26,227 nt of DNA from a virus: the IMG/VR virus record IMGVR_UViG_3300023278_000504, positions 1 to 26,227 of that record. The stretch is one strand, 5' to 3'. This document shows positions 3,498-19,814 of this stretch, one piece after another. A program made the position numbers and the translations under genes. Position 1 is the first letter of the stretch. Each line of letters opens with the position of its first letter. The notes beneath the pieces were generated by a model that worked only from the letters and a program-made list of their open reading frames with translations, did not search any database and had not been told where the DNA came from.

Positions 3498-4319
3498 CTA
3501 TATAGAGTTATGATTAATTTTTTGTTGTTGGTTTCCTAATTGCTTAAATCCGTTACTATGGTGATTAATATTAGGTATAAGTCTTACAAACTCATTTTTC
3601 CAAGTTTCCATTTCATCCATAGTAGGTAAATGGGCTGCACTGTTTGCTTTACCTACATACCAATCCCTTTCTCTTTGTATATAAGTAAATCTTCCTTGGT
3701 CCATCTTACCTTGTATATAAAGTTTTTGTGCTATTTTCTCCGCAATGTAATACTTAACAGCTTGCTTATAAGCTTGGTTATCTGGTATCATTGGAAATCC
3801 TTCTGCATCTGTTGGAAAAGCTTTATACGCCATTACTAGTTCTCCTTCTTCAAAGTTAGTAAATATGTAGCAATCATTAATAGTATAAGTTAAATCCCCA
3901 TCACAAGCATTTTTTAATAAAGATTTTCCCCCAGCAGTTAAGTCAGATGTAAATGTTCCTATGTTACTAGTTGTAGCTACAGGTAAATGAGCTTCTAGTT
4001 TTTGTGCTCCACTATGAAAAGAATCTCCTGAACCACGGAGCATAGTTCCTGTACTACTTTCCATTACTTGCACAGGATATAACATATCGCAAGGTAATGC
4101 TCCTCTGTAATTCTTTATAACAATAGGGCAAGGATGATTAATATCTATATTACCATCAGTTACTTTATCTACATACTGTTTAGGAGCAGCTATTAAATCA
4201 AGACACTCTCCTACCCACTCAATGCAATCTACCCAATTAACTTCTTGCGACCAACCAAAGTCTCTATAGACACCATCAATGATAGTACCCATCTTTGTAT
4301 ATTTTCCGTTTAGTGCCAT
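3498..4319 (-). CDS. Conserved crAss-like tail/ring structural protein
   Basis: A 273-residue protein with ATG start. The first 55 residues contain the run GVYRDFGWSQEVNWVDCIEW followed by a predicted helix (about 35-55). This start resembles a small structural protein found beside the P22 gp10-like gene in crAss-like phages, probably a tail ring or connector component. Residues 60-165 are beta-rich and contain IVIKNYRGALPCD; residues 180-230 are helical and charged (KQAVKYYIAEKIAQKLYIQG); the C-terminal 30 residues are Asn/Gln-rich and likely disordered. It is preceded by a 30-base AT-rich gap after the 718-residue fibre and followed 2 bases later by the giant tail gene. The exact ring assignment is inference from position. 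Confidence 0.6.
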   Translation of the reverse strand: MALNGKYTKMGTIIDGVYRDFGWSQEVNWVDCIEWVGECLDLIAAPKQYVDKVTDGNIDINHPCPIVIKNYRGALPCDMLYPVQVMESSTGTMLRGSGDSFHSGAQKLEAHLPVATTSNIGTFTSDLTAGGKSLLKNACDGDLTYTINDCYIFTNFEEGELVMAYKAFPTDAEGFPMIPDNQAYKQAVKYYIAEKIAQKLYIQGKMDQGRFTYIQRERDWYVGKANSAAHLPTMDEMETWKNEFVRLIPNINHHSNGFKQLGNQQQKINHNSI

Positions 4320-6933: not shown

Positions 6934-7433
6934 TACATGTAATAATCTCCTTCAAAGTTTTCATCAGTTACTAAAGCAGTTATTGCTCTCTTATTAGTTC
7001 TAGTAGGAATAAAGCAGTATGCTGACTTATTCTTACAAGTAGAACGATAGTTACTGAAGTGCCATTTATACTCATAACCATCAGAATGCTCGTTGGTATG
7101 GTATACTAGTTTCTTAGTAGCTTTAGCTTCAGGGTCAGTAGCCCACAATTCATTAGTTAGTTTCCAGTTAGGATTAAGTTTATCTTTCTTTAAGTTACCT
7201 TCTTTATCAAAAATACTAGGTTTATATTTTTTAATCCTAAGTGTCCCCAATCTGGCAGGCATTAAAAATTCAAAAGTTTCCTCTAACATTAGTCGGGAAA
7301 CTTCTTTATTAAATTCATTTAATACTTTAGAATGTAAACGTTGAGAAACGGGCCCTTCGGCTGTCTTTTTGTAAGACCTGTATATAGCTCCCCGAGCATA
7401 ATCTATTTGTATTTTTTTTGGCCCTCTTATCAT
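6933..7433 (-). CDS. crAss-like connector/ring-type structural protein (166 aa)
   Basis: A small basic protein starting with MIRGPKK. Residues 18-36 contain IYRSYKKTAEGPVS, followed by a helix with FNKEVSRLM (41-49) and MPARLGTLRIKKYK (58-71). I recognise this RGPK...YK...PVS...LGTLRI.KYKP layout as a conserved crAss-like structural family near the tail ring genes, although I cannot name the ring it forms. A beta-rich C-terminal half holds YEYKWHFSNYRSTCKNKS (120-137). Its start overlaps the upstream stop by four bases (ATGA), and its stop overlaps the next start by one base, so it is translationally coupled on both sides. The short length fits a head-tail connector subunit. Confidence 0.6.
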   Translation of the reverse strand: MIRGPKKIQIDYARGAIYRSYKKTAEGPVSQRLHSKVLNEFNKEVSRLMLEETFEFLMPARLGTLRIKKYKPSIFDKEGNLKKDKLNPNWKLTNELWATDPEAKATKKLVYHTNEHSDGYEYKWHFSNYRSTCKNKSAYCFIPTRTNKRAITALVTDENFEGDYYM

Positions 7434-8134
7434 TGTACTGGTGACGCATCGCTTTTAGCATTATTAGTACTGTCTGCTTGCTGTACTTCTGCTTGAGCAG
7501 TTATCATTAAGTTAGATTGTAGTATAGATTGTTTTAATCCTGGTATCATCCACGCTTTAATAGGATAATTCATATCATCTGTATAACAAGGTTCACCTGT
7601 TTCTGAACAGTCATTAAACACTGCAGCAGCAGAAGGGTCTTCTGCAATTAAGCTAACACTAATGTTTGCTAAATTTTTATATCTAGGATTTTTACTATAC
7701 ACATAAATGTATCCTTTATGTCTAAATGTAAATATCATACTTCCCGTAAATCTAGCATGAGCTACAAAAGGTATTCTGTCTTTTTCTACGTGTGAAAAAG
7801 GCTCGCTTTTTACATTAATAGGGGCTACTCTTGTAATACCTTGTTGATTATGTAATTCTATAGTATCAGGTAGTTTCATTGTGCTACGTAATATAGGACA
7901 ATCTAATACAATATCACAGCAATCAGAAGCATCTACTTCTTCTAGTTCTACACATAAAGTTTGTATAATGTCTGAATCAATAGTTCTACTTCTATTAAGT
8001 TCATTGCGTATAAACAAAGCTCTCTGGTTATGTATCCAGAATTTAATTTGCCGTAAGTCTATGTCACTATCATCAGATAGTTGAGGTCTTACTATACCTA
8101 GTAAGTCATGCGCTATTTCATTAAGTGATGCCAT
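7430..8134 (-). CDS. Tail ring/adaptor-type structural protein (234 aa)
   Basis: A 234-residue protein when started at ATG 8134. A longer version from TTG at 8143 adds only three residues and is less likely. The N-terminus is helical with IRQIKFWIHNQRALFIRNEL-like spacing (about 28-46), then a Cys-containing loop (DCCDIVLDCP, 71-80) and a beta-rich middle (FVAHARFTGSMIFTFRHKGY, 123-142). A 30-residue Gln/Asn/Ser-rich tail follows IKAWMIPGLKQSIL (192-205). The helix-loop-beta layout matches ring or adaptor proteins of the crAss-like tail (P22 gp4-type position). It follows the lysis cassette and overlaps the next gene by four bases. Structural role is likely; the exact ring is uncertain. Confidence 0.6.
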   Translation of the reverse strand: MASLNEIAHDLLGIVRPQLSDDSDIDLRQIKFWIHNQRALFIRNELNRSRTIDSDIIQTLCVELEEVDASDCCDIVLDCPILRSTMKLPDTIELHNQQGITRVAPINVKSEPFSHVEKDRIPFVAHARFTGSMIFTFRHKGYIYVYSKNPRYKNLANISVSLIAEDPSAAAVFNDCSETGEPCYTDDMNYPIKAWMIPGLKQSILQSNLMITAQAEVQQADSTNNAKSDASPVQ

Positions 8135-8153
8135 AATATACAATAATACTTAA

Positions 8154-8836: not shown

Positions 8837-9361
8837 TTAATTCAATACTTTAGGTTTAATAAAACCTAACATTCTTAACCCATTATCATTTGTAAAATTA
8901 ATAGGCCTGCTTTTAGAAGCTACTATATAGCCTTCTCTGCCTCCCTTATCGTTTGTGTTGCCTTCTATTGTCTTTATAGTATCTTCCCCAACCTCCATGA
9001 CTATGGCAGCGTGTCCCGTGCTCTGAGCTTTTCCTTTTTTATAAGTTTGCCAAATTACTATGTCACCTTCTTCAGGAGTTTTACTTGTCCACTTAATAGC
9101 TTTAAAATGTCTGAATGTTCTTACTGTACCTGCACTAAATTCTTTTTTTAATATAGGTAACATTTCTGAAGCAAATTCTTTATACGCCTCTACCCAACAT
9201 AGCTCAGTAAATAGACAGCACCAAGCGTAACCATCGCGCATACCTATAGAAGTCATTTTTTTATCAAACTCTGGGTCTTTAAAGCCCATGTTTCCCTTAT
9301 TTTCTTCTTGTCCTAAATATTCAAAAGCATAGCTTTTAATACTTCCTCTTATAGTTTCCAT
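8837..9361 (-). CDS. CHAP-domain peptidoglycan hydrolase (endolysin or virion lysin)
   Basis: A 174-residue protein from ATG 9361; TTG 9376 or GTG 9373 would extend it into the upstream gene. It has a single CHAP fold: catalytic Cys48 in DGYAWCCLF (43-51), His117 in STGHAAIVMEV (114-124), and the acidic/amide residue in IEGNTND (132-138), preceded by the typical PEEGDIVIW (96-104). CHAP enzymes cleave peptide bonds or the amide link in peptidoglycan. It has no signal peptide or separate wall-binding domain, so it would need the neighbouring holin to reach the wall. The upstream holin-like stop lies 4 bases before the chosen start. Adjacent Cys48-Cys49 leaves slight doubt over which is the nucleophile. 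Confidence 0.85.
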   Translation of the reverse strand: METIRGSIKSYAFEYLGQEENKGNMGFKDPEFDKKMTSIGMRDGYAWCCLFTELCWVEAYKEFASEMLPILKKEFSAGTVRTFRHFKAIKWTSKTPEEGDIVIWQTYKKGKAQSTGHAAIVMEVGEDTIKTIEGNTNDKGGREGYIVASKSRPINFTNDNGLRMLGFIKPKVLN

Positions 9362-9365
9362 AATT

Positions 9366-9611
9366 TTATCCACCAAACTTGCTCATCCACCAAGCTTTAA
9401 TTGCTAATATTATTGCAGAAACCCCTGTTCCTGCTCCTGTTCCGTAAAGTACAGATGTTGATTTTATATTATTTATTTGTTTTTTGTTTTCACTTGTTTT
9501 TTTCTCTACTGTATTCATTCTATGGATTAATCCAGTAGTACCAAGATCATTTCCTACCATAGCAGTATGAATATCCCTTAATAATTTTATGTGTTCAGGA
9601 TCTAGTGACAT
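9366..9611 (-). CDS. Small membrane protein, holin/antiholin-like
   Basis: An 81-residue protein. Residues 1-50 are hydrophilic and partly coiled-coil (MNTVEKKTSENKKQINNIK, 32-50); residues 53-74 form one Gly/Ala-rich membrane segment (GTGAGTGVSAIILAIKAWW), with a short Lys/Gly end. This one-span layout with an N-terminal soluble helix is like XhlA-type haemolysin/holin partners. It lies directly between a second small membrane protein and the CHAP enzyme, which supports a role in timing membrane permeabilisation. It could also be an antiholin. No family could be confirmed by eye. Confidence 0.6.
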   Translation of the reverse strand: MSLDPEHIKLLRDIHTAMVGNDLGTTGLIHRMNTVEKKTSENKKQINNIKSTSVLYGTGAGTGVSAIILAIKAWWMSKFGG

Positions 9612-9812: not shown

Positions 9813-10454
9813 CTATACTATTTTATTTTTTTCTACTTCTAAAATCATGTCCATGTGAATCTTCGCTATTCTATCTCTACCCTCTTCGCTTAATAAAAGA
9901 GCAGATTCTTTTCTATTTGTCATAAAGAAATTCTCAGAAAGTATTGCAGGCATAACAGTCTTGCGTAATACCCAAAAGTTAGACTCTTGGTCTGCATCTC
10001 CGTCCCTTGTATCCTTTCTCATTTTGTGGTCTGGAAACTCCTCCTTAGCATTGTTAAATAATATCTCTGCTATCTTATCGCTTTTAGTTTCTCCTACACT
10101 AGTATAAACAGCCCACCCATGAGCAGACTCTTTGCCGAAACCGTTTGCGTGAATAGACACGTAAATACAAGGCTTGCCTCCTTTGTCTCTTTGTTGGCGG
10201 TAAATGTCATTTGCCTTATCTGTTCTCTTTCTTAGAGAAATTTCTTCTTCTGTATCTACTAAATTAACACAATCAATCCCTGCATCTGTACACGATTTCA
10301 TTAATCTTTTAACGATAGCTCTATTAAATACGCCCTCTAGTAATTGAGTTCCATCTTCCCAAACTGGAGAACGCTTACCAGCCGTTTGGTACTTGCCATC
10401 TATTACTCCTCCATGTCCATTGTCAAATAGCCAAATATAATTGCTTTCTTTCAT
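9813..10454 (-). CDS. N-acetylmuramoyl-L-alanine amidase (Amidase_3 family)
   Basis: A 213-residue zinc amidase that cuts the bond between N-acetylmuramic acid and L-alanine in peptidoglycan. Expected residues of the Amidase_3 fold are visible in order: His14 in FDNGHGG (10-16), Glu40 in LLEGVFN (38-44), His102 in VSIHANGF (99-106), and catalytic Glu174 in ILSENFFM (171-178). The length matches a bare catalytic domain with no wall-binding repeat and no signal peptide. It begins 9 bases after the fibre gene and is followed 2 bases later by the putative holin, so it opens the lysis cassette. It is the most likely main endolysin of this phage, alongside the CHAP enzyme. Confidence 0.93.
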   Translation of the reverse strand: MKESNYIWLFDNGHGGVIDGKYQTAGKRSPVWEDGTQLLEGVFNRAIVKRLMKSCTDAGIDCVNLVDTEEEISLRKRTDKANDIYRQQRDKGGKPCIYVSIHANGFGKESAHGWAVYTSVGETKSDKIAEILFNNAKEEFPDHKMRKDTRDGDADQESNFWVLRKTVMPAILSENFFMTNRKESALLLSEEGRDRIAKIHMDMILEVEKNKIV

Positions 10455-10463
10455 AGCTGCTTT

Positions 10464-12731
10464 TTAAGGTGTAATTGTATAACCGTTGCCTCCTGTTATG
10501 TACCAAGACGGAGTACCACTTAAGTCATTTATAAATTGTAAAGTTACTGTGTCTCCTTCACTATTTATATTAATTGTAGTTCCTCCTCTTAAATTAGAGG
10601 GTAATAGGCTTATTCCTCCACTCGCACTGGAGTTAATACAAACTAAAGTAAGTATTTGCCCAAATTCTCCGTCTGCTATTGTGTGAGTATCAAAATTAAG
10701 CGGCAGTGTGCCAATTGCAATAGTTGATTTACTCAAATCTATAAAAGTGTTCGCACCAGGAAAAACAATAGAATTCCCACTATGCCTAACTTTTCCACTT
10801 GTGGTAAATTCATCTGATGAAGTTAAAACAGTTGAGTTAACATCAGGCATTCCAACAGGTCTTAACCCTAAATCAGATAATACTGTACCTAAGTCTGTAT
10901 TTACTAATGGTTGTACTATTGGTGTAGATCCATAAAATGCTAATTTCTGACTAGTTGCAGTACCTATTTTAGTACCTGTAGTAGTATCTAAAATCATGTT
11001 AATGCCATTATCTCCCATATAAAGATCTCCATTAGCTAGATACAATGAATAGTTCTGGCCTGATGCTCCTGATGCACTAAAATTTCCTGCTATATTATCT
11101 CCAGAAGTTGCACCAAGTAAGCTTACTGCTACCCCTTGTACTTGCCCTGTTCCAGCAACTGCGCTCACTATTTCAACTCCTTTAGTAGTAACAGTACCGC
11201 CAACACCTTGAATATTTGCACTAAATCCAGCCCAGTTAGCTCCCGCAGAAGTAAGATTTGTACTAGCATCATACGCTTTATTACTAGCAGTTCCTCCTTG
11301 AGCATTTGAGCTTACTCCTTTATTAAAAGTTGTCCCTGCTCCAGATGAATCAATGTTTGCAGCAACACAACTACCCGTTGTAATTGTGTTATATACCTTT
11401 AAAGAAGTTGCAAAAGCTTGGTTTCTTAATGTTACAGCTGAGAGTGAGTCCACAGCACCATTAATACCTAATTGGTCTCCATCATCTAATATTAAAGAAT
11501 CTATTAAACTTGTTCCTGCAGCATCAAATTTAGGCAAAATATTAGCAGTTCCTGATGTAGTACTAGTAGCTCTTTGTGTATTACCAATAGTAAAGTAATT
11601 AGTACCGTCATTAATAAGTTTAAGTCCTGCTTTATCTATATTAATAATAGCAGAAGCTGCTCCGTCAATTGTTCCTCCAGTAGTTACTATTGTTATTGCA
11701 TTAGTTCCTGCAGTTTCTACATCCCATATTTCAGGTTCAAACCTTGAGGGAGATATTAAAGTGCTTGGGTTAGGCAATGTTATTGTACAAACCCCTACAC
11801 TAGTGCGTGTAACATACCATAACTTAGAATCACTTTCCGTTAATATTTTAGAAGCAGTAGATATTACAGATGAGTTATAAATTTCTTGGTCAAATACATT
11901 TCCCAATTCTAAAGGAGTTATTGCAGAATCAGCATTAGATAAAGCAAGAGCTTCAGCATTAGTTGAAATTCTGGTAGCACCTGCAATAGTAGTAGTACTA
12001 TTTGTAAGTTTATTTTTAGGTATCCAAACTGTACCACTAGCATATAAAAGAATACTTTCTCCATTAGCAGTAATACTCATTGTAGAAGTGGTGTCTAAAA
12101 AAGTATCTGAACCAGCTACATTAATTATAATATTATAAGTTTCTGCATTATTTCCTGCATCTACTATATAAAATTCTGTTCTGTCTGCAGAGGCTAAAGT
12201 AGAAGTGTCTGGAAGTGTGATAGTACAAGTACCTGCAGTAGTTCTGGTCACATTAATAGTACCTCTGTCTGCATATGTTAAAGTTGCAGTAGCGTTGTTT
12301 ACAGTAGTCTTTTTTAATACATCATACTCTATTTTACTTCCTACGTACTCAGTAGTAGCAAGTGCAGTACTTTCTACTGTATCTACAGCTGTTACTCCAG
12401 TGGTAGTACTACTAAGAGATGCTCCAATTGCATCAGATTTTAAAGCTAAAGCAGAGTCTACATACGTTTTAGTAGTAGGATGTAGTCCTGAAGTAGGGGC
12501 TCCTGATAAAGTAATGTCTCCTGTTAGTACGCCTCCAGCTAGATTTAATTTATCTGCAGTAAGAGCTGCTACCGCTATGTCATTAGAAATTTCATAAGCA
12601 GCTTGACTAGCAACAATAGCTGCTGTAATTGCAGCGCCTGTTACTTTATAATCTACTCCTGCTACGTTTACTACGTACTCTTCTGTTCCGTCAGTTATAG
12701 GTCTTGATGTTAAATCTGTTATTAATGTCAT
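10464..12731 (-). CDS. Tail fibre / receptor-binding-type protein (755 aa)
   Basis: A 755-residue fibre. Residues 62-93 hold the classic fibre repeat LTGDITLSGAPTSGLHPTTK followed by TYVDSA. Residues 250-280 carry a second fibre motif (TRISTNAEALALSNADSAIT). Two homologous beta domains are seen: about 144-238 with TAGTCTITLPDTSTL, and 290-384 with SVGVCTITLPNPSTL, each ending in a Trp/Tyr-phi-phi-G pattern. A third, weaker copy occupies the C-terminal 110 residues (TFIDLS to SWYITGG). Residues 398-620 are a Gly/Ala/Ser-rich stretch resembling fibre-linked peptides (ILPKFDAAGTSLIDSLILDD). Trimeric, beta-rich organisation is expected. No chaperone or hydrolase motif is seen. The gene follows a small unknown gene by 3 bases and immediately precedes the amidase. 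Confidence 0.8.
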   Translation of the reverse strand: MTLITDLTSRPITDGTEEYVVNVAGVDYKVTGAAITAAIVASQAAYEISNDIAVAALTADKLNLAGGVLTGDITLSGAPTSGLHPTTKTYVDSALALKSDAIGASLSSTTTGVTAVDTVESTALATTEYVGSKIEYDVLKKTTVNNATATLTYADRGTINVTRTTAGTCTITLPDTSTLASADRTEFYIVDAGNNAETYNIIINVAGSDTFLDTTSTMSITANGESILLYASGTVWIPKNKLTNSTTTIAGATRISTNAEALALSNADSAITPLELGNVFDQEIYNSSVISTASKILTESDSKLWYVTRTSVGVCTITLPNPSTLISPSRFEPEIWDVETAGTNAITIVTTGGTIDGAASAIINIDKAGLKLINDGTNYFTIGNTQRATSTTSGTANILPKFDAAGTSLIDSLILDDGDQLGINGAVDSLSAVTLRNQAFATSLKVYNTITTGSCVAANIDSSGAGTTFNKGVSSNAQGGTASNKAYDASTNLTSAGANWAGFSANIQGVGGTVTTKGVEIVSAVAGTGQVQGVAVSLLGATSGDNIAGNFSASGASGQNYSLYLANGDLYMGDNGINMILDTTTGTKIGTATSQKLAFYGSTPIVQPLVNTDLGTVLSDLGLRPVGMPDVNSTVLTSSDEFTTSGKVRHSGNSIVFPGANTFIDLSKSTIAIGTLPLNFDTHTIADGEFGQILTLVCINSSASGGISLLPSNLRGGTTININSEGDTVTLQFINDLSGTPSWYITGGNGYTITP

Positions 12732-12734
12732 GTC

Positions 12735-13199
12735 TTAAGTTTCTTTTGATGAAAATAGTTGTAAATTTCCTGTACCTAAATGCGGTTGATTTATAAGTTC
12801 TGTTTCTCCTGGAGTTTTGTTTAATGTTATTGGCCCACCTCCCCCTAGCCCTAGTTCTTTCTGAACAGGTTCTTCCCAAAATGAAGTGTTATAAGAGGTT
12901 TCTTTGTTTAAAAAATGTAATCCTGTAATTATTTGAATGTTTTTAATTATATTATCAACACATTCTTCCGTAATACCATTATGTACTCCGTTTTGTTCAG
13001 CAGTAGTAATAGGACAATACCCTAATAAAGCCATATAACAAGCTACTACATATTCGTATTTCATAAATTCAACTTCATCAAGTAGTTGTCCGTATTTAAG
13101 GTTGCCTACTATTTTATCAGTCTGTGAAGATATCCAAAGACCAATATCTACTCTTCTTTTAAGTAAATCGTTTTCTGTATAATATTTTACTACTGCCAT
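12735..13199 (-). CDS. Hypothetical small structural-region protein (154 aa)
   Basis: A 154-residue protein of unrecognised family. Residues 1-60 are mixed helical (YYTENDLLKRRVDIGLWISS); residues 76-95 contain two Cys (GYCPITTAEQNGVHNGITEECV); residues 115-135 hold a Gly4 turn (LGLGGGGP). The C-terminus is polar (LGTGNLQLFSSKET). Its ATG overlaps the stop of the collagen-like gene by one base (TAATG), and the 755-residue fibre starts 3 bases after its stop. Coupling to fibre genes on both sides suggests a tail or head-decoration part or a fibre-assembly factor. No enzymatic motif is visible, so no function is assigned. Confidence 0.6.
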   Translation of the reverse strand: MAVVKYYTENDLLKRRVDIGLWISSQTDKIVGNLKYGQLLDEVEFMKYEYVVACYMALLGYCPITTAEQNGVHNGITEECVDNIIKNIQIITGLHFLNKETSYNTSFWEEPVQKELGLGGGGPITLNKTPGETELINQPHLGTGNLQLFSSKET

Positions 13200-14077
13200 T
13201 AACTAAGTTGTAAATAAGCTACTTCTAATGATATACGAGACCCTACCCAAGCGCTTATAGCACCGTCAGTGCCAATTTCTTTATAATCTCTTGTTCTTCT
13301 GCCTTCTTTTAAAGACGCTTTATTTTCTTTTGCTTGTTTTTCTTCTTGATTTATTCTAGATTTTTTAGCAAGAAGTTGTCTCTTTTCTGATAATACATTT
13401 CTTTCTTCTTTAACAATTCCTGAACCTGCTATTCCATAATCTTTAGTAAGTGTATTATAAAAATTAGATTTTTTTAATTTTGTTTTTTCTTTTATAGTTT
13501 CTTTAGCTATGACGGCTTCTCCTGCATCATATAATCTTTCAATTTCTGCAAGATAAGATTTTTCTTTTTCTGTAGGATAAGCTATATAAGCCCACAACCC
13601 AACAATGTCATCATTAATTGGCCATAAATTAGGGTCTATATCAAGGTTTACTATTCTAAAATCTTTATTTTTACCAAATCCTTTTATTTCAAAATCACTT
13701 TTAGCAATAATAGTGGGATCATCTGCTAGAGGATTTTCAGTAGTGTGGTTCATTAATCTAAGGCCCGCTTTACATATTGTATTTCCTGTATCTGCTCCTA
13801 TAATTACTTTTACACTACTAAGAGTATTTAAACTGTTTGTAGTAGTATGTCCTACTAAAACATAATGCCCTGCTGGCACTTCAAAAAAAGAAGCAGAGCT
13901 TTTACAACTAAACGATACATCTGTTTTGCCCAAGTTACCTGGACCTTTTGCTCCTTGATCTCCTTGTGGGCCAGTATTTCCTTGTTCGCCATTTTCTCCA
14001 GTAGCTCCTTTAGGACCACTAGGTCCTTCGCCAAGTCTTATTGCATTATTGTTATTTGTATAAATATAAGTAGACAT
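13199..14077 (-). CDS. Collagen-like virion protein with basic coiled-coil tail (292 aa)
   Basis: Residues 18-47 are ten uninterrupted Gly-X-Y triplets (GPSGPKGATGENGEQGNTGP, continuing to GDQGAKGPG), indicating a collagen triple helix and hence a trimer. A beta-rich globular domain follows (about 52-175, containing FFEVPAGHYVLVGHTTTNSL and IVGLWAYIAYP). Residues 175-270 are strongly charged and helical (KEERNVLSEKRQLLAKKSRI, then NQEEKQAKENK). The final 25 residues are hydrophobic (GAISAWVGSRISLEVAYLQL). Collagen-like segments occur in phage fibres and head decorations. It overlaps the second collagen-like gene upstream by one base, so the two may form a mixed fibre. The coiled-coil tail is absent from the partner. 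Confidence 0.8.
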   Translation of the reverse strand: MSTYIYTNNNNAIRLGEGPSGPKGATGENGEQGNTGPQGDQGAKGPGNLGKTDVSFSCKSSASFFEVPAGHYVLVGHTTTNSLNTLSSVKVIIGADTGNTICKAGLRLMNHTTENPLADDPTIIAKSDFEIKGFGKNKDFRIVNLDIDPNLWPINDDIVGLWAYIAYPTEKEKSYLAEIERLYDAGEAVIAKETIKEKTKLKKSNFYNTLTKDYGIAGSGIVKEERNVLSEKRQLLAKKSRINQEEKQAKENKASLKEGRRTRDYKEIGTDGAISAWVGSRISLEVAYLQLS

Positions 14078-14706
14078 TATCTCATTTCTAGTGCGTAAGC
14101 TCTGTGTTCTGTTCTAGTATTTCCCGACGGTTTTCCGTAATTTACGTCTGTAAAAGCTTCTTTTGCTTTTCCTGCATCTGCTTTCATTGCAACTGCTGTG
14201 TCTTTTGCTTCTCCTATCGCTCCTTGTAAAATTAAAACTGTTTCCGTATTAGGTAAGTTTTTTAATTGAGCTGTTAATATTTTATAAACATGTATATTTG
14301 TTTGATTTTCAGAAACGTTAGCTTCTGACACTGTTTGAACTCTTCCTCCAGAATCTATAAATATTAATCTAAAAAATAAAAAAGATTCTCCATTTGGAGA
14401 TTTAATACTATATGCTATTTTTGAATATTCTGGAGTAAAAATGTCAGTGCCTGCAAAAATACAGAAAGCTAATGTATCCCAATTGTTTGAGTTTTTAGAA
14501 ATTTTTGCTTTAATGTCAACAAATGGCTTAGAGCCTTCTTGTAAATTAATGTCTAATTTATTATCTCCTGAAGGTCCTATTGGTCCTGCTGGACCTCTTG
14601 CTCCATCTTTACCATCTTCTCCTTTTATTCCTGAAGACCCTCTTTTTCCTTGGTTTCCTTTAGATATTTGGCCAGCACTTATATTATTGTTTTCTGAACA
14701 TCCCAT
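14077..14706 (-). CDS. Collagen-like virion protein (209 aa)
   Basis: Residues 17-49 are eleven Gly-X-Y triplets (GNQGKRGSSGIKGEDGKDGA, then RGPAGPIGPSGDN), predicting a trimeric collagen helix. A beta-rich domain follows (about 52-165, with DTLAFCIFAGTDIFTPEYSK and ESFLFFRLIFIDSGG). The last 45 residues are Ala/Lys-rich and may be a helix or linker. The N-terminus MGCSENNN has Cys3, which could crosslink, but there is no signal peptide, so lipidation is unlikely. It follows the cysteine-rich protein by 1 base and overlaps the next collagen-like gene by one base (TAATG). A head fibre or decoration role fits its place directly after the head module; a tail fibre role cannot be excluded. Confidence 0.8.
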   Translation of the reverse strand: MGCSENNNISAGQISKGNQGKRGSSGIKGEDGKDGARGPAGPIGPSGDNKLDINLQEGSKPFVDIKAKISKNSNNWDTLAFCIFAGTDIFTPEYSKIAYSIKSPNGESFLFFRLIFIDSGGRVQTVSEANVSENQTNIHVYKILTAQLKNLPNTETVLILQGAIGEAKDTAVAMKADAGKAKEAFTDVNYGKPSGNTRTEHRAYALEMR

Positions 14707-14707
14707 T

Positions 14708-15262
14708 TTAACAAGTTTTAGCGCAATAATTATTAATTAAATCTATTAAGCATTTAAATTTATCTATATCTCCAACTGCTGCACTTGCAGTAGCTGCATC
14801 TAAATATGTTTTGGCTTCTAAAGCTCTACGTAAATCACTGCCGTCACAGTCGCAAATATCAATATCTGCTAATAAGCAATGAACACAATTACGTGCTTGC
14901 CCTAAAAGAAGTATAGTTTGTGTGTTTGTAATAACTCCTTCTAACGGAGTAGTGACTTCATAAACAAATAACCACTCGCCATCAGCAATTAATAAATCAG
15001 TACCTAAACTTAAGTCCTGTGTTCTAATGGCATTATCTGTTGTACTATCTGCTGTAGGAAAAATTGGATATAAATCTAAAATAATTTCTGTTCCTCCTGG
15101 AGGCGTTATTTTTAATATTGCTGCAGTAGCATCTGTAGTGTTTTCAGCATCTCCCCAACCGCCTGGGTTAGTTGAAGCATTATACGCACCAGTAGTTTCA
15201 TTAAAGAGTATTTCCCTTGCGTTATCACTCTCTCTAATATTAAAGTCTATGTATATTGACAT
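14708..15262 (-). CDS. Cysteine-rich virion-region protein (184 aa)
   Basis: A 184-residue protein with a beta-rich N-terminal domain of about 120 residues (PPGGTEIILDLYPIF at 54-68; GEWLFVYEVTTPL at 95-107). A compact C-terminal helical domain contains seven cysteines: Cys126, 129, 137, 139, 171, 180 and 184, in the pattern RNCVHCLLADIDICDCD...KCLIDLINNYC. No cysteine occurs in the first 125 residues. The paired CxxC and CxC spacing could bind a metal or form disulphides. It is the first gene after the terminator at 15292-15325, so it probably starts a new transcript, and it abuts the collagen-like genes. I do not recognise a named family; similar small Cys-containing proteins occur near crAss-like head genes from memory only. 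Confidence 0.65.
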   Translation of the reverse strand: MSIYIDFNIRESDNAREILFNETTGAYNASTNPGGWGDAENTTDATAAILKITPPGGTEIILDLYPIFPTADSTTDNAIRTQDLSLGTDLLIADGEWLFVYEVTTPLEGVITNTQTILLLGQARNCVHCLLADIDICDCDGSDLRRALEAKTYLDAATASAAVGDIDKFKCLIDLINNYCAKTC

Positions 15263-15351: not shown

Positions 15352-16599
15352 CTATACTGCAGCAACAGTTATTCCTGTTAAATCCTCAAGTACAGCCCAA
15401 AGACCGTTAGCATGATTCATATAAGTACTTGCCCCTAATGTACTAGGAGAAGCAATAGATATTTGCTTAGGAGACACTTCATTTTGAAATCCTACTAAAG
15501 AAGAATCTTCAAATACAATTGTAGTTGTATCATAAGTCAAAGCACTGTCAGTTGCTCCAGCAAAAGAGTGGATAGTTGGTTCACCCATTCTGTAACTTTC
15601 ACCTTCAAATCCTTTTAAGAACCATTCCTTTTCAGCAATTTCTTTATAAGTACCTGTTCCTTTGTAAGCATTAGACTCTCTTAGAGAGGCAGTAGAACCA
15701 AAGTCTTTAAGGATTAATTCCCAACGTACTTGCTTATACTGTTCTTTTCCAACTACAAAGCTTAAAGGCTTACCAGTTATTTTAAAACCAGCAGCGGCTC
15801 CACCAGCTTGCGCAAGAGTAATAACATCTGCATCAGCAGTTGCAGTAGCATACACACCAGAAGCAGCAACTACAGGTCTGTCTAATGTATACATGTCACC
15901 TGCAGAAATAGCAATTACTTTATAAACGCTATCTGCTACGGTTGCTCCAGCACCTACAGCACCAAATCTTAAGAAGTCACCTACTACAGCAGTTAATGCA
16001 GCAGCACCTGTAACAACTTTAGAACCGTTTACTACAGTAATATTAGCTCCTTCAGTTGCACCAGCAGCTGCAGAGTAAATATCAAACTGTAAATATTCTT
16101 CAGCTTCTCTAGCAAAGTTTTTTATTCCTGATACAACTAAGTTGTAAGCAATATCCATTTGTGATGGTGCAGCTACTCCAGATTTCCATTGGAAATGTTT
16201 GATGTAACGTCCATCAGTGTTAGATGTTAAAAGCTCTTGAACCATTACATCTACCATGTATAAGTTGTTTGCAGTTAATGTAGCAATAGAACCAGTAGTC
16301 CCATTATACCCGACAGAATCTGATTGTTCTGTAGCGGCAACATAAGCTTTAGTAGAAATAGCTTTTACGCTAGAAGCTTTAATTGCTTCAGATACAAAAG
16401 CTGGTTTTGAATCAGAACCTCCTACTGCAATAATGAAATTATCATTAGCAGCTGATGCTGCTAGTCTAGATCCACCAACAGAAAAGAGAGCTACCTCTCC
16501 ATCTAATAAAGCTGAAATAGCTTCTGTAGCAACAGGCGCACCTGCTGCAACTTTTCCTAACGCTAAATATTCTACGTTTCTTGATTGTGTAATACTCAT
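15352..16599 (-). CDS. Ala/Gly-rich major structural protein (tail-tube-like or auxiliary capsid)
   Basis: A 415-residue protein, rich in Ala, Gly, Ser and Val. Residues 1-100 are beta/alpha mixed (VEYLALGKVAAGAPVATEAI). Residues 110-175 hold YMVDVMVQELLTSNTDGRYI and a helix. Residues 190-275 form a beta insert (VNGSKVVTG, VGDFLRFGAVG, YTLDRPVV). Residues 285-350 contain QVRWELILKDFGSTASLRES and EKEWFLKGFEGESYRMGEP, a pattern I associate with abundant structural proteins in Bacteroidota phages. It has a very A-rich leader (AAAAACAAAAAAA just before ATG) and its own terminator, both suggesting high expression. It closes the head module. Alternative roles are tail tube, hub or head auxiliary protein; the sequence alone does not decide. 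Confidence 0.65.
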   Translation of the reverse strand: MSITQSRNVEYLALGKVAAGAPVATEAISALLDGEVALFSVGGSRLAASAANDNFIIAVGGSDSKPAFVSEAIKASSVKAISTKAYVAATEQSDSVGYNGTTGSIATLTANNLYMVDVMVQELLTSNTDGRYIKHFQWKSGVAAPSQMDIAYNLVVSGIKNFAREAEEYLQFDIYSAAAGATEGANITVVNGSKVVTGAAALTAVVGDFLRFGAVGAGATVADSVYKVIAISAGDMYTLDRPVVAASGVYATATADADVITLAQAGGAAAGFKITGKPLSFVVGKEQYKQVRWELILKDFGSTASLRESNAYKGTGTYKEIAEKEWFLKGFEGESYRMGEPTIHSFAGATDSALTYDTTTIVFEDSSLVGFQNEVSPKQISIASPSTLGASTYMNHANGLWAVLEDLTGITVAAV

Positions 16600-16646: not shown

Positions 16647-17360
16647 TTATTCTGTTAAACTCTCCTCACTTTGCTTTATCTGATATGCTTGTGGGTCTGT
16701 TATCCCAGTTGCAATTCTTACAGCAATATCAACAATTTCTTCATGCATAGCTTCATTTAATTCTGAAGTTACATTTCCTAAAAGGTCAATGTCTGAAGGT
16801 AATTTAATATATCTTACATGATAAGTATCTACAGTAGTATCTGCATTTGCAACAATTTCATGTCTTAATGCAGGCGTTGAATTTACTATATCATGACTAA
16901 AATCTAATCTCCAAATTAAATCCTCATTGGGCTTTTTAAAAGGGTTTTTGATATTAGCATTGTACTCATCATGTGTGATAGGTTTAACGCTAATTCTATC
17001 TCCATCAAAGCATGCGTTTGTATGTGATATAGTAGCCTCTTCCATTAGTGTATAAAGAAAGTCTATAGGTAAGTCAAAGAATACTCCATTAGGAAATACT
17101 CCTGTTTGGTCACTAGTATTAGTACTAGCGGAAATGTCTACTCCTCTAACTAATTCCGATAAATCTTTTCTTCTCTTCTCAGTAGCTTCTACTCCTTCAC
17201 GGTACTTATTACCTTTGTAATTGTACCTATGTTTAACAGCTTGTAATTGGGCTTTATTTAAAAATAATTGTATCTCTTCCTGAGAATAACCAGGAGCCGC
17301 AAGGTTAGTAACTTTGTCGTACAATATTAAAAATGATAATTCCAATTCTGCTGCTGTCAT
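16647..17360 (-). CDS. Head-tail adaptor/ring-type protein (237 aa)
   Basis: A 237-residue protein. The N-terminus SFLILYDKVTNLAAPGYSQE (9-28) followed by EIQLFLNKAQLQAV (29-42) is a helical start I recognise from crAss-like and other Bacteroidota phage adaptor/ring proteins. A basic helix (KYREGVEATEKRRKDLSELV, 52-71) is followed by a beta-rich core (GVFFDLPIDFLYTLMEEATI and TVDTYHVRYIKLPSDIDL). The C-terminal helix (EEIVDIAVRIATGI) is followed by an acidic tail. Its start overlaps the stop of the 293-residue gene by one base. Order after capsid genes fits a head completion or portal-bound ring protein. The family layout is clear, the exact ring assignment is not. Confidence 0.65.
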   Translation of the reverse strand: MTAAELELSFLILYDKVTNLAAPGYSQEEIQLFLNKAQLQAVKHRYNYKGNKYREGVEATEKRRKDLSELVRGVDISASTNTSDQTGVFPNGVFFDLPIDFLYTLMEEATISHTNACFDGDRISVKPITHDEYNANIKNPFKKPNEDLIWRLDFSHDIVNSTPALRHEIVANADTTVDTYHVRYIKLPSDIDLLGNVTSELNEAMHEEIVDIAVRIATGITDPQAYQIKQSEESLTE

Positions 17361-18338: not shown

Positions 18339-19814
18339 CTATGCTAATTCAGATGGAATTAACGTAGCCGTTCTAGACGGATCTTTTACCATTGCTCCAA
18401 CCATACAAGCTCTGTGGTACGTGTACCCATCTGTAGAGTTAGACATGATATTTTTCTCTCCGTTTCCAGCAAAAGGATGACGTAAACCAGCTTCATAGCC
18501 CATTATGTCTTCTTGTCCTTTAGCGTAAACTTTACGGATATTTGGCTCTCCATCAGAAGTACCAACGTCAAGGATGTCATATCTGTAAGATTCAGCAACA
18601 CCACCATTTGAATGGTAAATCTTGTTACGTTCTCTATCGTCATATAAACTATCAACAGATAAGTTTACTTTGATTCCTTGAGGTCCCATATACTCTAAGA
18701 ACTGTCCTCCATATCCAAGTCCCATTTTTACTCCGTCAGAACCTTTTGTAGTATACATTCTGTCTTCGTTAAATAATGGTGTGAATAATTGACTGTGGTT
18801 TTCTAAAGCTTCGTGGAATTGGATTGCTCCTCTTTCCCCTGTTCTTAATACAAACTCTCTTTTGTCTCCTGGAAGTTTTCCTTCAGATAAATCTAAAAGT
18901 ACACTTAAAAGATATTTGATAGAGAAGTTAGAGTATACAGAAGTATTAGATGCTTCCATTTGTTGACGGATACCTGCACCTTGCTTCTTAATGTGCCCAG
19001 ATTTACCAAAGTTCTTGTAAGAACCATCAGTAGCTTTATTAGCTCTAGCATACATTAATACTTTGTTTTTCTCTTGACGGAACTGGTTGTCAAACATATA
19101 ATCCTCATACTGTGTCCAAGTAGAATGTGCTTTTCCTTTACCATCTTTCCAAGCAGTAGCAAACGGTCTGTGTACCATGTTACCTGGAGTAGTGTGTTGC
19201 ATTCTAATCATTGTAAACGCATTTCTCATTTTAAATGGAGAAACAAAGTTCACTAGACCACCTTTCTTAGAAAGTGTTTGTTCTACTAAAGACCAATCCT
19301 TAGAGAACCTTTTAGATGCAGATAATTCCTCAAAAGGAACGAATAAATCTGGATCACCAGTAATTAATTTACATCTATAAACCCAGTTAGTTCCTTCAGG
19401 AAGTGGGTCAGCAATTACTTGCATAGAATAAATTTCGTTTTTCTCACCAACAATAACATTCTCATCAGAGAACCATTGTTCTGGAAAAACTAATTCAAAC
19501 TCTGTAAAGTTCTTACCTGCTTCAGAAGCTGCAGTAATAGCAACACCTCCGATACGTGCCTCTACTAGAGGTACATTTTTCTTAGCAGAACCTATCAACT
19601 CCCAAGTAAAATCATCATCACTATCTAATGTTAGTGGTGAAAATTGTTCTAGGTAAGAGTCTAAGTCTAAACCAAAGTTAGTTTGATGAATCCTAGTCAT
19701 CAATTTTGAAGCTACCTGCGGGTTAGACTGATAAATAGCTCCTAAGTGATTCTTAGTAGTTAAACCAGTCCACGCCTGTGCTTCTGTCATTTGAAACGGT
19801 GAAATTTTCGGCAT
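18339..19814 (-). CDS. Major capsid protein (crAss-like, HK97-type fold expected)
   Basis: A 491-residue protein in the usual capsid slot after portal and scaffold-like genes. The N-terminus (MPKISPFQMTEAQAWTGLTT, then KNHLGAIYQSNPQ) matches my memory of crAss-like major capsid proteins. Residues 60-120 contain DSDDDFTWELIGSAKKNVPL; the middle (about 185-270) has the basic run MRNAFTMIRMQHTTPGNMVH and a disordered loop. The C-terminus is beta-rich (YEAGLRHPFAGNGEKNIMSN, then YTYHRACMVGAMV). No N-terminal protease motif is apparent. Its leader is AAACAAATAAA-ATG with no Shine-Dalgarno sequence, a hairpin follows the stop, and GC content is higher than in neighbours, consistent with high expression. 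The HK97 fold is family knowledge, not visible in the sequence. Confidence 0.85.
   Translation of the reverse strand: MPKISPFQMTEAQAWTGLTTKNHLGAIYQSNPQVASKLMTRIHQTNFGLDLDSYLEQFSPLTLDSDDDFTWELIGSAKKNVPLVEARIGGVAITAASEAGKNFTEFELVFPEQWFSDENVIVGEKNEIYSMQVIADPLPEGTNWVYRCKLITGDPDLFVPFEELSASKRFSKDWSLVEQTLSKKGGLVNFVSPFKMRNAFTMIRMQHTTPGNMVHRPFATAWKDGKGKAHSTWTQYEDYMFDNQFRQEKNKVLMYARANKATDGSYKNFGKSGHIKKQGAGIRQQMEASNTSVYSNFSIKYLLSVLLDLSEGKLPGDKREFVLRTGERGAIQFHEALENHSQLFTPLFNEDRMYTTKGSDGVKMGLGYGGQFLEYMGPQGIKVNLSVDSLYDDRERNKIYHSNGGVAESYRYDILDVGTSDGEPNIRKVYAKGQEDIMGYEAGLRHPFAGNGEKNIMSNSTDGYTYHRACMVGAMVKDPSRTATLIPSELA

Follow-up and report, generated by a model that had tools for sequence, protein, structure and literature searches.

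What do two adjacent collagen-like genes in a crassvirus genome build: fibres on the head, a single composite fibre, or two separate fibres on the tail? Crassviruses are very abundant, and their attachment to the host surface is poorly resolved; in PhicrAss001 the tail fibres are too flexible for good modelling. We address the question for a stretch of 26,227 nt (the window), whose source is a fragment of a crassvirus genome. The two genes, here called CLP-A and CLP-B, are laid out as follows.

14077..14706, minus strand: CLP-A, 209 aa, collagen-like and very probably a fibre protein (open reading frame; conserved in 8 viruses; predicted structure)
14560..14658, minus strand: CLP-A collagen run, 11 Gly-X-Y triplets, residues 17-49 (glycines aligned among relatives)
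14080..14559, minus strand: CLP-A head domain, residues 50-209, predicted beta-sandwich (AlphaFold model; fold matches)
14075..14079, minus strand: TAATG, the CLP-A stop and CLP-B start, a one-base overlap (sequence)
13199..14077, minus strand: CLP-B, 292 aa, collagen-like, very probably a fibre protein and by profile a CLP-A paralogue (open reading frame; conserved in 8 viruses)
13937..14026, minus strand: CLP-B collagen run, 10 Gly-X-Y triplets, residues 18-47 (triplet scan)
13253..13570, minus strand: CLP-B insertion ahead of the conserved last strand, charged and probably helical, about residues 170-275 (alignment; sequence and charge count)

Both collagen runs are uninterrupted. When each protein was shuffled 20,000 times the longest run obtained was 7, and 0 of 20,000 shuffles reached the observed value, which rules out a chance Gly-rich stretch as the source of the runs; no further run of such length is present in any frame of the window. 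The Pfam Collagen family scores CLP-A and CLP-B at 23.2 and 18.9 bits, respectively, below its gathering score of 27.2, as expected because the runs are so short. The open reading frames, triplet scan and shuffles agree with the sequence-only reading of this locus, which described two adjacent collagen-like genes that overlap by one base and carry 10-11 triplets near the N-terminus. CLP-A and CLP-B are very probably virion fibre proteins.

The surroundings of the pair are those of a Crassvirales virion module. Pfam recognises the major capsid protein (MCP), an auxiliary capsid protein (AUX) and several ring proteins, with an E-value of 4.8e-153 for the MCP against Crass_capsid. The window MCP is ~43% identical to the MCPs of the cultured relatives Cellulophaga phage phi14:2 and PhicrAss001, and up to 95% identical to those of uncultured IMG/VR contigs. 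The genes used for orientation are these.

18339..19814, minus strand: major capsid protein, MCP (Pfam PF23898)
16647..17360, minus strand: tail ring protein 3/4 (Pfam PF25710)
15352..16599, minus strand: auxiliary capsid protein, AUX (Pfam PF25650)
14708..15262, minus strand: tail-hub-A-like protein, 184 aa (model, fold match to 7qoj_H, profiles, synteny)
12735..13199, minus strand: 154-aa protein in the hub-B position (position)
10464..12731, minus strand: long fibre-like protein, 755 aa (kept in the same relatives as the CLP pair)
7430..8143, minus strand: tail ring protein 2 (Pfam PF25702)
3498..4319, minus strand: tail ring protein 1 (Pfam PF24228)

On the minus strand the genes run in the order TerL, portal, a 396-aa protein, MCP, a 293-aa protein, ring 3/4, AUX, the 184-aa protein, CLP-A, CLP-B, the 154-aa protein, the 755-aa fibre (no family match in Pfam), lysis genes, ring 2, further genes and ring 1. 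The tail block also contains the lysis genes, for a CHAP-domain protein and an amidase (8837-9376 and 9813-10454), which separate the long fibre from ring 2. The corresponding order in PhicrAss001 is MCP (gp32), gp33, ring proteins gp34 and gp35, AUX (gp36), hub proteins gp38 and gp39, ring protein gp40, and gp43 (protein names from PMC10172136). The CLP pair thus falls between AUX with the hub-A-like gene on one side and ring 2 and ring 1 on the other, in a block colinear with gp34/35-gp36-gp38-gp39-gp40-gp43. Because the neighbours are the hub-A-like gene and ring genes, in the order seen in PhicrAss001, we place the CLP-A and CLP-B genes in the tail block and not in the head block. A role as head fibres had been suggested from position, but position does not support it, since the pair lies in the tail-hub block, flanked by the hub-A-like gene and, further on, by ring 2.

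The assignment of the 184-aa protein to the hub A slot follows from this colinearity and is consistent with its predicted structure. The model (pLDDT 88) aligns over both domains with 7qoj_H, a chain of the PhicrAss001 tail barrel (TM 0.44, a middling Z of 7.7, 151 residues). Chain H carries no name in the hit table; we take it to be gp38 because chain G of 7qoj is gp38 and the hub holds two gp38 copies. The 184-aa protein also matches predicted structures of phi17:2 and phi14:2 structural proteins, and its family profile matches phi17:2 gp058 (93.8%) and phi14:2 g087 (91.7%); gp38 itself matches distant relatives of the family at a profile probability of 52.9%. Pfam crAss_THA matches PhicrAss001 gp38 and its DAC15 counterpart but not the 184-aa protein, sequence profiles alone retrieved no PDB relatives of the family, and tblastn searches for the 184-aa protein in phages and in bacterial genomes found nothing. 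The 154-aa protein agrees with gp39 in position and small size only: the hhalign probability is under 1%, and a profile search with the 154-aa protein returned chance-like matches only. The start of the 154-aa protein, YYTENDLLKRR, resembles by eye that of PhicrAss001 gp22 (FFTQEDYRKIEKW), which docks in the hub by its first 26 residues (PMC10172136); the likeness may be chance.

We gathered relatives of the window from IMG/VR by an MCP search; IMG/VR searches with CLP-A or CLP-B as single proteins gave no matches. A search of these relatives for the pair, which the sequence-only reading had put forward, found it at the same position in seven of them (L002, L004, L010, L011, L012/L020, L021 and L081), that is, in 8 viruses including the window. 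The pair is therefore a conserved module; its presence in 8 viruses also rules out an artefact of a single assembly. In every relative the two genes overlap by one base or are separated by a spacing near zero. The collagen run begins at residue 17 of CLP-A in 8/8 viruses and at residues 18-20 of CLP-B, and alignments reveal recognisable N-terminal peptides (MATSENNCxDNYSLPxG in CLP-A, MSTYTNNNNAI in CLP-B) and a conserved terminal strand (YAxExR in CLP-A, YLQI or similar in CLP-B). Few of the sequences compared vary as much as the heads: mean identity between the window and its relatives is 29% for the CLP-A head and 24% for the CLP-B head, against 54% for the 184-aa protein and 82% for the MCP. 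The CLP-B of L020 (8689-9768) is without the C-terminal strand that is kept by the otherwise near-identical L012 (16683-17807), and overlaps the following gene at its end; this may be a natural truncation or an assembly error.

The two heads had been described as unrelated globular domains, one with a coiled-coil tail and the other with an Ala/Lys tail. Profile comparison of the full-length proteins gives 98.7%, partly via collagen, and with the collagen removed the heads still match (84.7%, E-value 6.7e-6). By their profiles CLP-A and CLP-B are sister proteins that diverged after a duplication, so the heads are better described as paralogous. The tails, too, are better described otherwise: in the alignments, and for CLP-A also in the model, they are insertions that precede a conserved C-terminal beta-strand. 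The AlphaFold model of CLP-A has pLDDT mostly 80-92 outside its insertion (~residues 168-199), which is modelled as a short helix and then a stretch of low confidence; confidence returns in the last strand. The predicted CLP-A head has among its best fold matches the Pgp3 C-terminal domain, CBM6 modules and TNF-like lectins, with Z of 7.5-8.9; such middling Z-scores indicate a common fold and not a function. Trimeric TNF-like lectins are among these matches, and the predicted fold would be compatible with trimers. Among 50,697 phage records we found no homologues of either head, the matches being to collagen stretches apart from one weak match, to phage Rogue1.

The slot after the hub-A-like gene is also occupied in many other contigs. 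A scan with the 184-aa family yielded 41 loci, in many of which one or two fibre genes, encoding 109 to 1207 aa and often with collagen runs, follow the hub-A-like gene. At least 2 Cys occur in the first 15 residues of 14/31 first genes after the hub-A-like gene and of 10/270 other ORFs (>=150 aa), counts that are not independent since the loci are related. The Cys-cluster starts (MSCC, MCNCN, MGCGCGGC), often followed by collagen, occur in L016, L025, L045, L047-L051, L053, L054, L060, L068, L071 and L073, and possibly form a disulphide anchor. The hub-A-like proteins have a Cys-rich segment at their end, and in PhicrAss001 disulphides stabilise the hub (PMC10172136); the slot fibres may be anchored by disulphides at the hub-A-like protein. 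In the clade of the window CLP-A has kept one Cys close to its start. Downstream of the hub slot, L045 (9297-12542; also L052) encodes a 1081-aa protein that includes two collagen runs as long as 87 and 102 triplets.

We propose that CLP-A and CLP-B are two separate, homotrimeric, collagen-stalked and jelly-roll-tipped adhesins at the tail hub or collar, a reading to which, taken as a whole, we give about an even chance. An N-terminal peptide of ~16-18 residues would anchor each protein in the virion, a collagen triple helix of ~30 residues would form the stalk, and a TNF/CBM-like jelly-roll head would stand at the far end. Because the CLP genes occupy the crassvirus tail-hub slot, we infer docking on a hub or collar built from the adjacent hub-A-like protein. 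The two heads would bind different features of the host surface, probably carbohydrate. Tail is favoured over head by the hub-A-like neighbour, by the other occupants of the slot and by gene position, which can mislead, as in PhicrAss001, where gp21, a head protein, is encoded between the portal and the tail fibre gp22. Were the pair instead two head fibres filling two kinds of hexon pocket, each held by its N-terminal peptide, there would be a precedent in PhicrAss001, whose two head fibres differ and occupy separate hexon environments (trimeric gp21 in planar and dimeric gp29 in winged hexons; PMC10172136). SPP1 gp12 likewise is a collagen-like capsid decoration, and the gene for AUX, which is a capsid surface protein, lies two genes upstream of the pair. 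We nevertheless regard the head as an unlikely site: the pair sits after the hub-A-like gene and within the tail-ring block, two trimeric collagens do not resemble a trimer-plus-dimer scheme, and Pfam Head_fiber_dimeric (PF25641) matches gp29 but neither CLP. When CLP-A, CLP-B and their relatives were compared with Pfam, Collagen and one chance-like match each were all that emerged, with no head-fibre family among them.

The one-base overlap had further been read as a hint of a heterotrimer. In the window, CLP-B and the gene after it overlap by one base as well, as do two further gene pairs, and because such overlaps are so common in this genome we discount the overlap as evidence of co-assembly. 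A single heterotrimeric collagen fibre, its ratio fixed by coupled translation, would still suit adjacent paralogues so closely spaced in all relatives. Within any one clade the first collagen segment of CLP-A stops at about the same residue as that of CLP-B, and PhicrAss001 builds its hub as an A2B heterotrimer (PMC10172136). However, collagen lengths and interruptions differ between the partners in most relatives: L011 and L021 interrupt the collagen of CLP-B only, and in L002, L012 and L081 the CLP-B collagen has an inserted domain and that of CLP-A a two-residue break. These mismatches, and the strong divergence of the heads, leave the heterotrimer with a small probability. The mismatches speak against an obligate one, and an obligate heterotrimeric collagen that matches the A2B hub and is held by N-terminal disulphides seems to us very improbable; a CLP-A/CLP-B heterotrimer, if true, would be a genetically encoded phage heterotrimeric collagen. 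In the CLP-B of L002, L012 and L081 the extra domain within the collagen is followed by a short second collagen segment. Serial stacking in a composite tail fibre, with CLP-A on the hub and CLP-B on CLP-A, would recall PhicrAss001 gp22, which docks on the hub and carries further fibre proteins (PMC10172136), and would fit the N-terminal Cys, present in CLP-A of 8/8 viruses and absent from CLP-B of the window and its closest relatives. We doubt it strongly, since the two proteins are built alike, each from a short anchor, a stalk and a head that varies, whereas a serial adaptor should keep a conserved distal end.

A conserved, small, collagen-stalked pair with diverging heads in the tail-hub slot offers compact, expressible candidates for receptor binding. 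Moreover, the slot itself, with hub A and then Cys-rich fibres that often carry collagen, is found again in many environmental contigs; through it fibre docking could be tested in uncultured relatives.

Collagen-like phage fibres are known, and the variant here is a set of paired paralogous collagen-stalked fibres in a crassvirus tail-hub operon. The literature that we searched, mostly outside subscription journals, held no relevant report on crAss-like phages with collagen and did not describe a conserved pair of paralogues in such an operon. SPP1 gp12 (PMC6316719) resembles the CLPs as a short collagen-like trimer displayed on a phage; unlike them it is the product of a single gene beside capsid genes and, at 64 aa in all, has no large head domain. 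The Escherichia coli prophage protein EPclA (PMC3368898), which is trimeric with a C-terminal trimerisation domain, and FibU of Staphylococcus phage 80alpha (PMC7048315), reported as dimers on the baseplate, share with the CLPs a collagen segment within a tail fibre, but differ in their anchors and heads and do not form a coupled paralogous pair. Within the crassviruses, PhicrAss001 gp21 and gp29 are like the pair in being two different short fibres per virion with N-terminal anchors, and unlike it in that collagen is not mentioned, in their genes and positions, and in sharing no family match. The tail hub of PhicrAss001 (gp38, gp39) and its trimeric fibre gp22 (PDB 7QOJ, 8CKB; PMC10172136) differ in that gp38 and gp39 are adjacent, with no fibre genes where the window has the CLP pair, and in that gp22 lacks collagen and matches a beta-helix. 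They are alike in the gene block and the hub-A-like neighbour, and gp22 has the short N-terminal peptide anchor that we propose for CLP-A and CLP-B.
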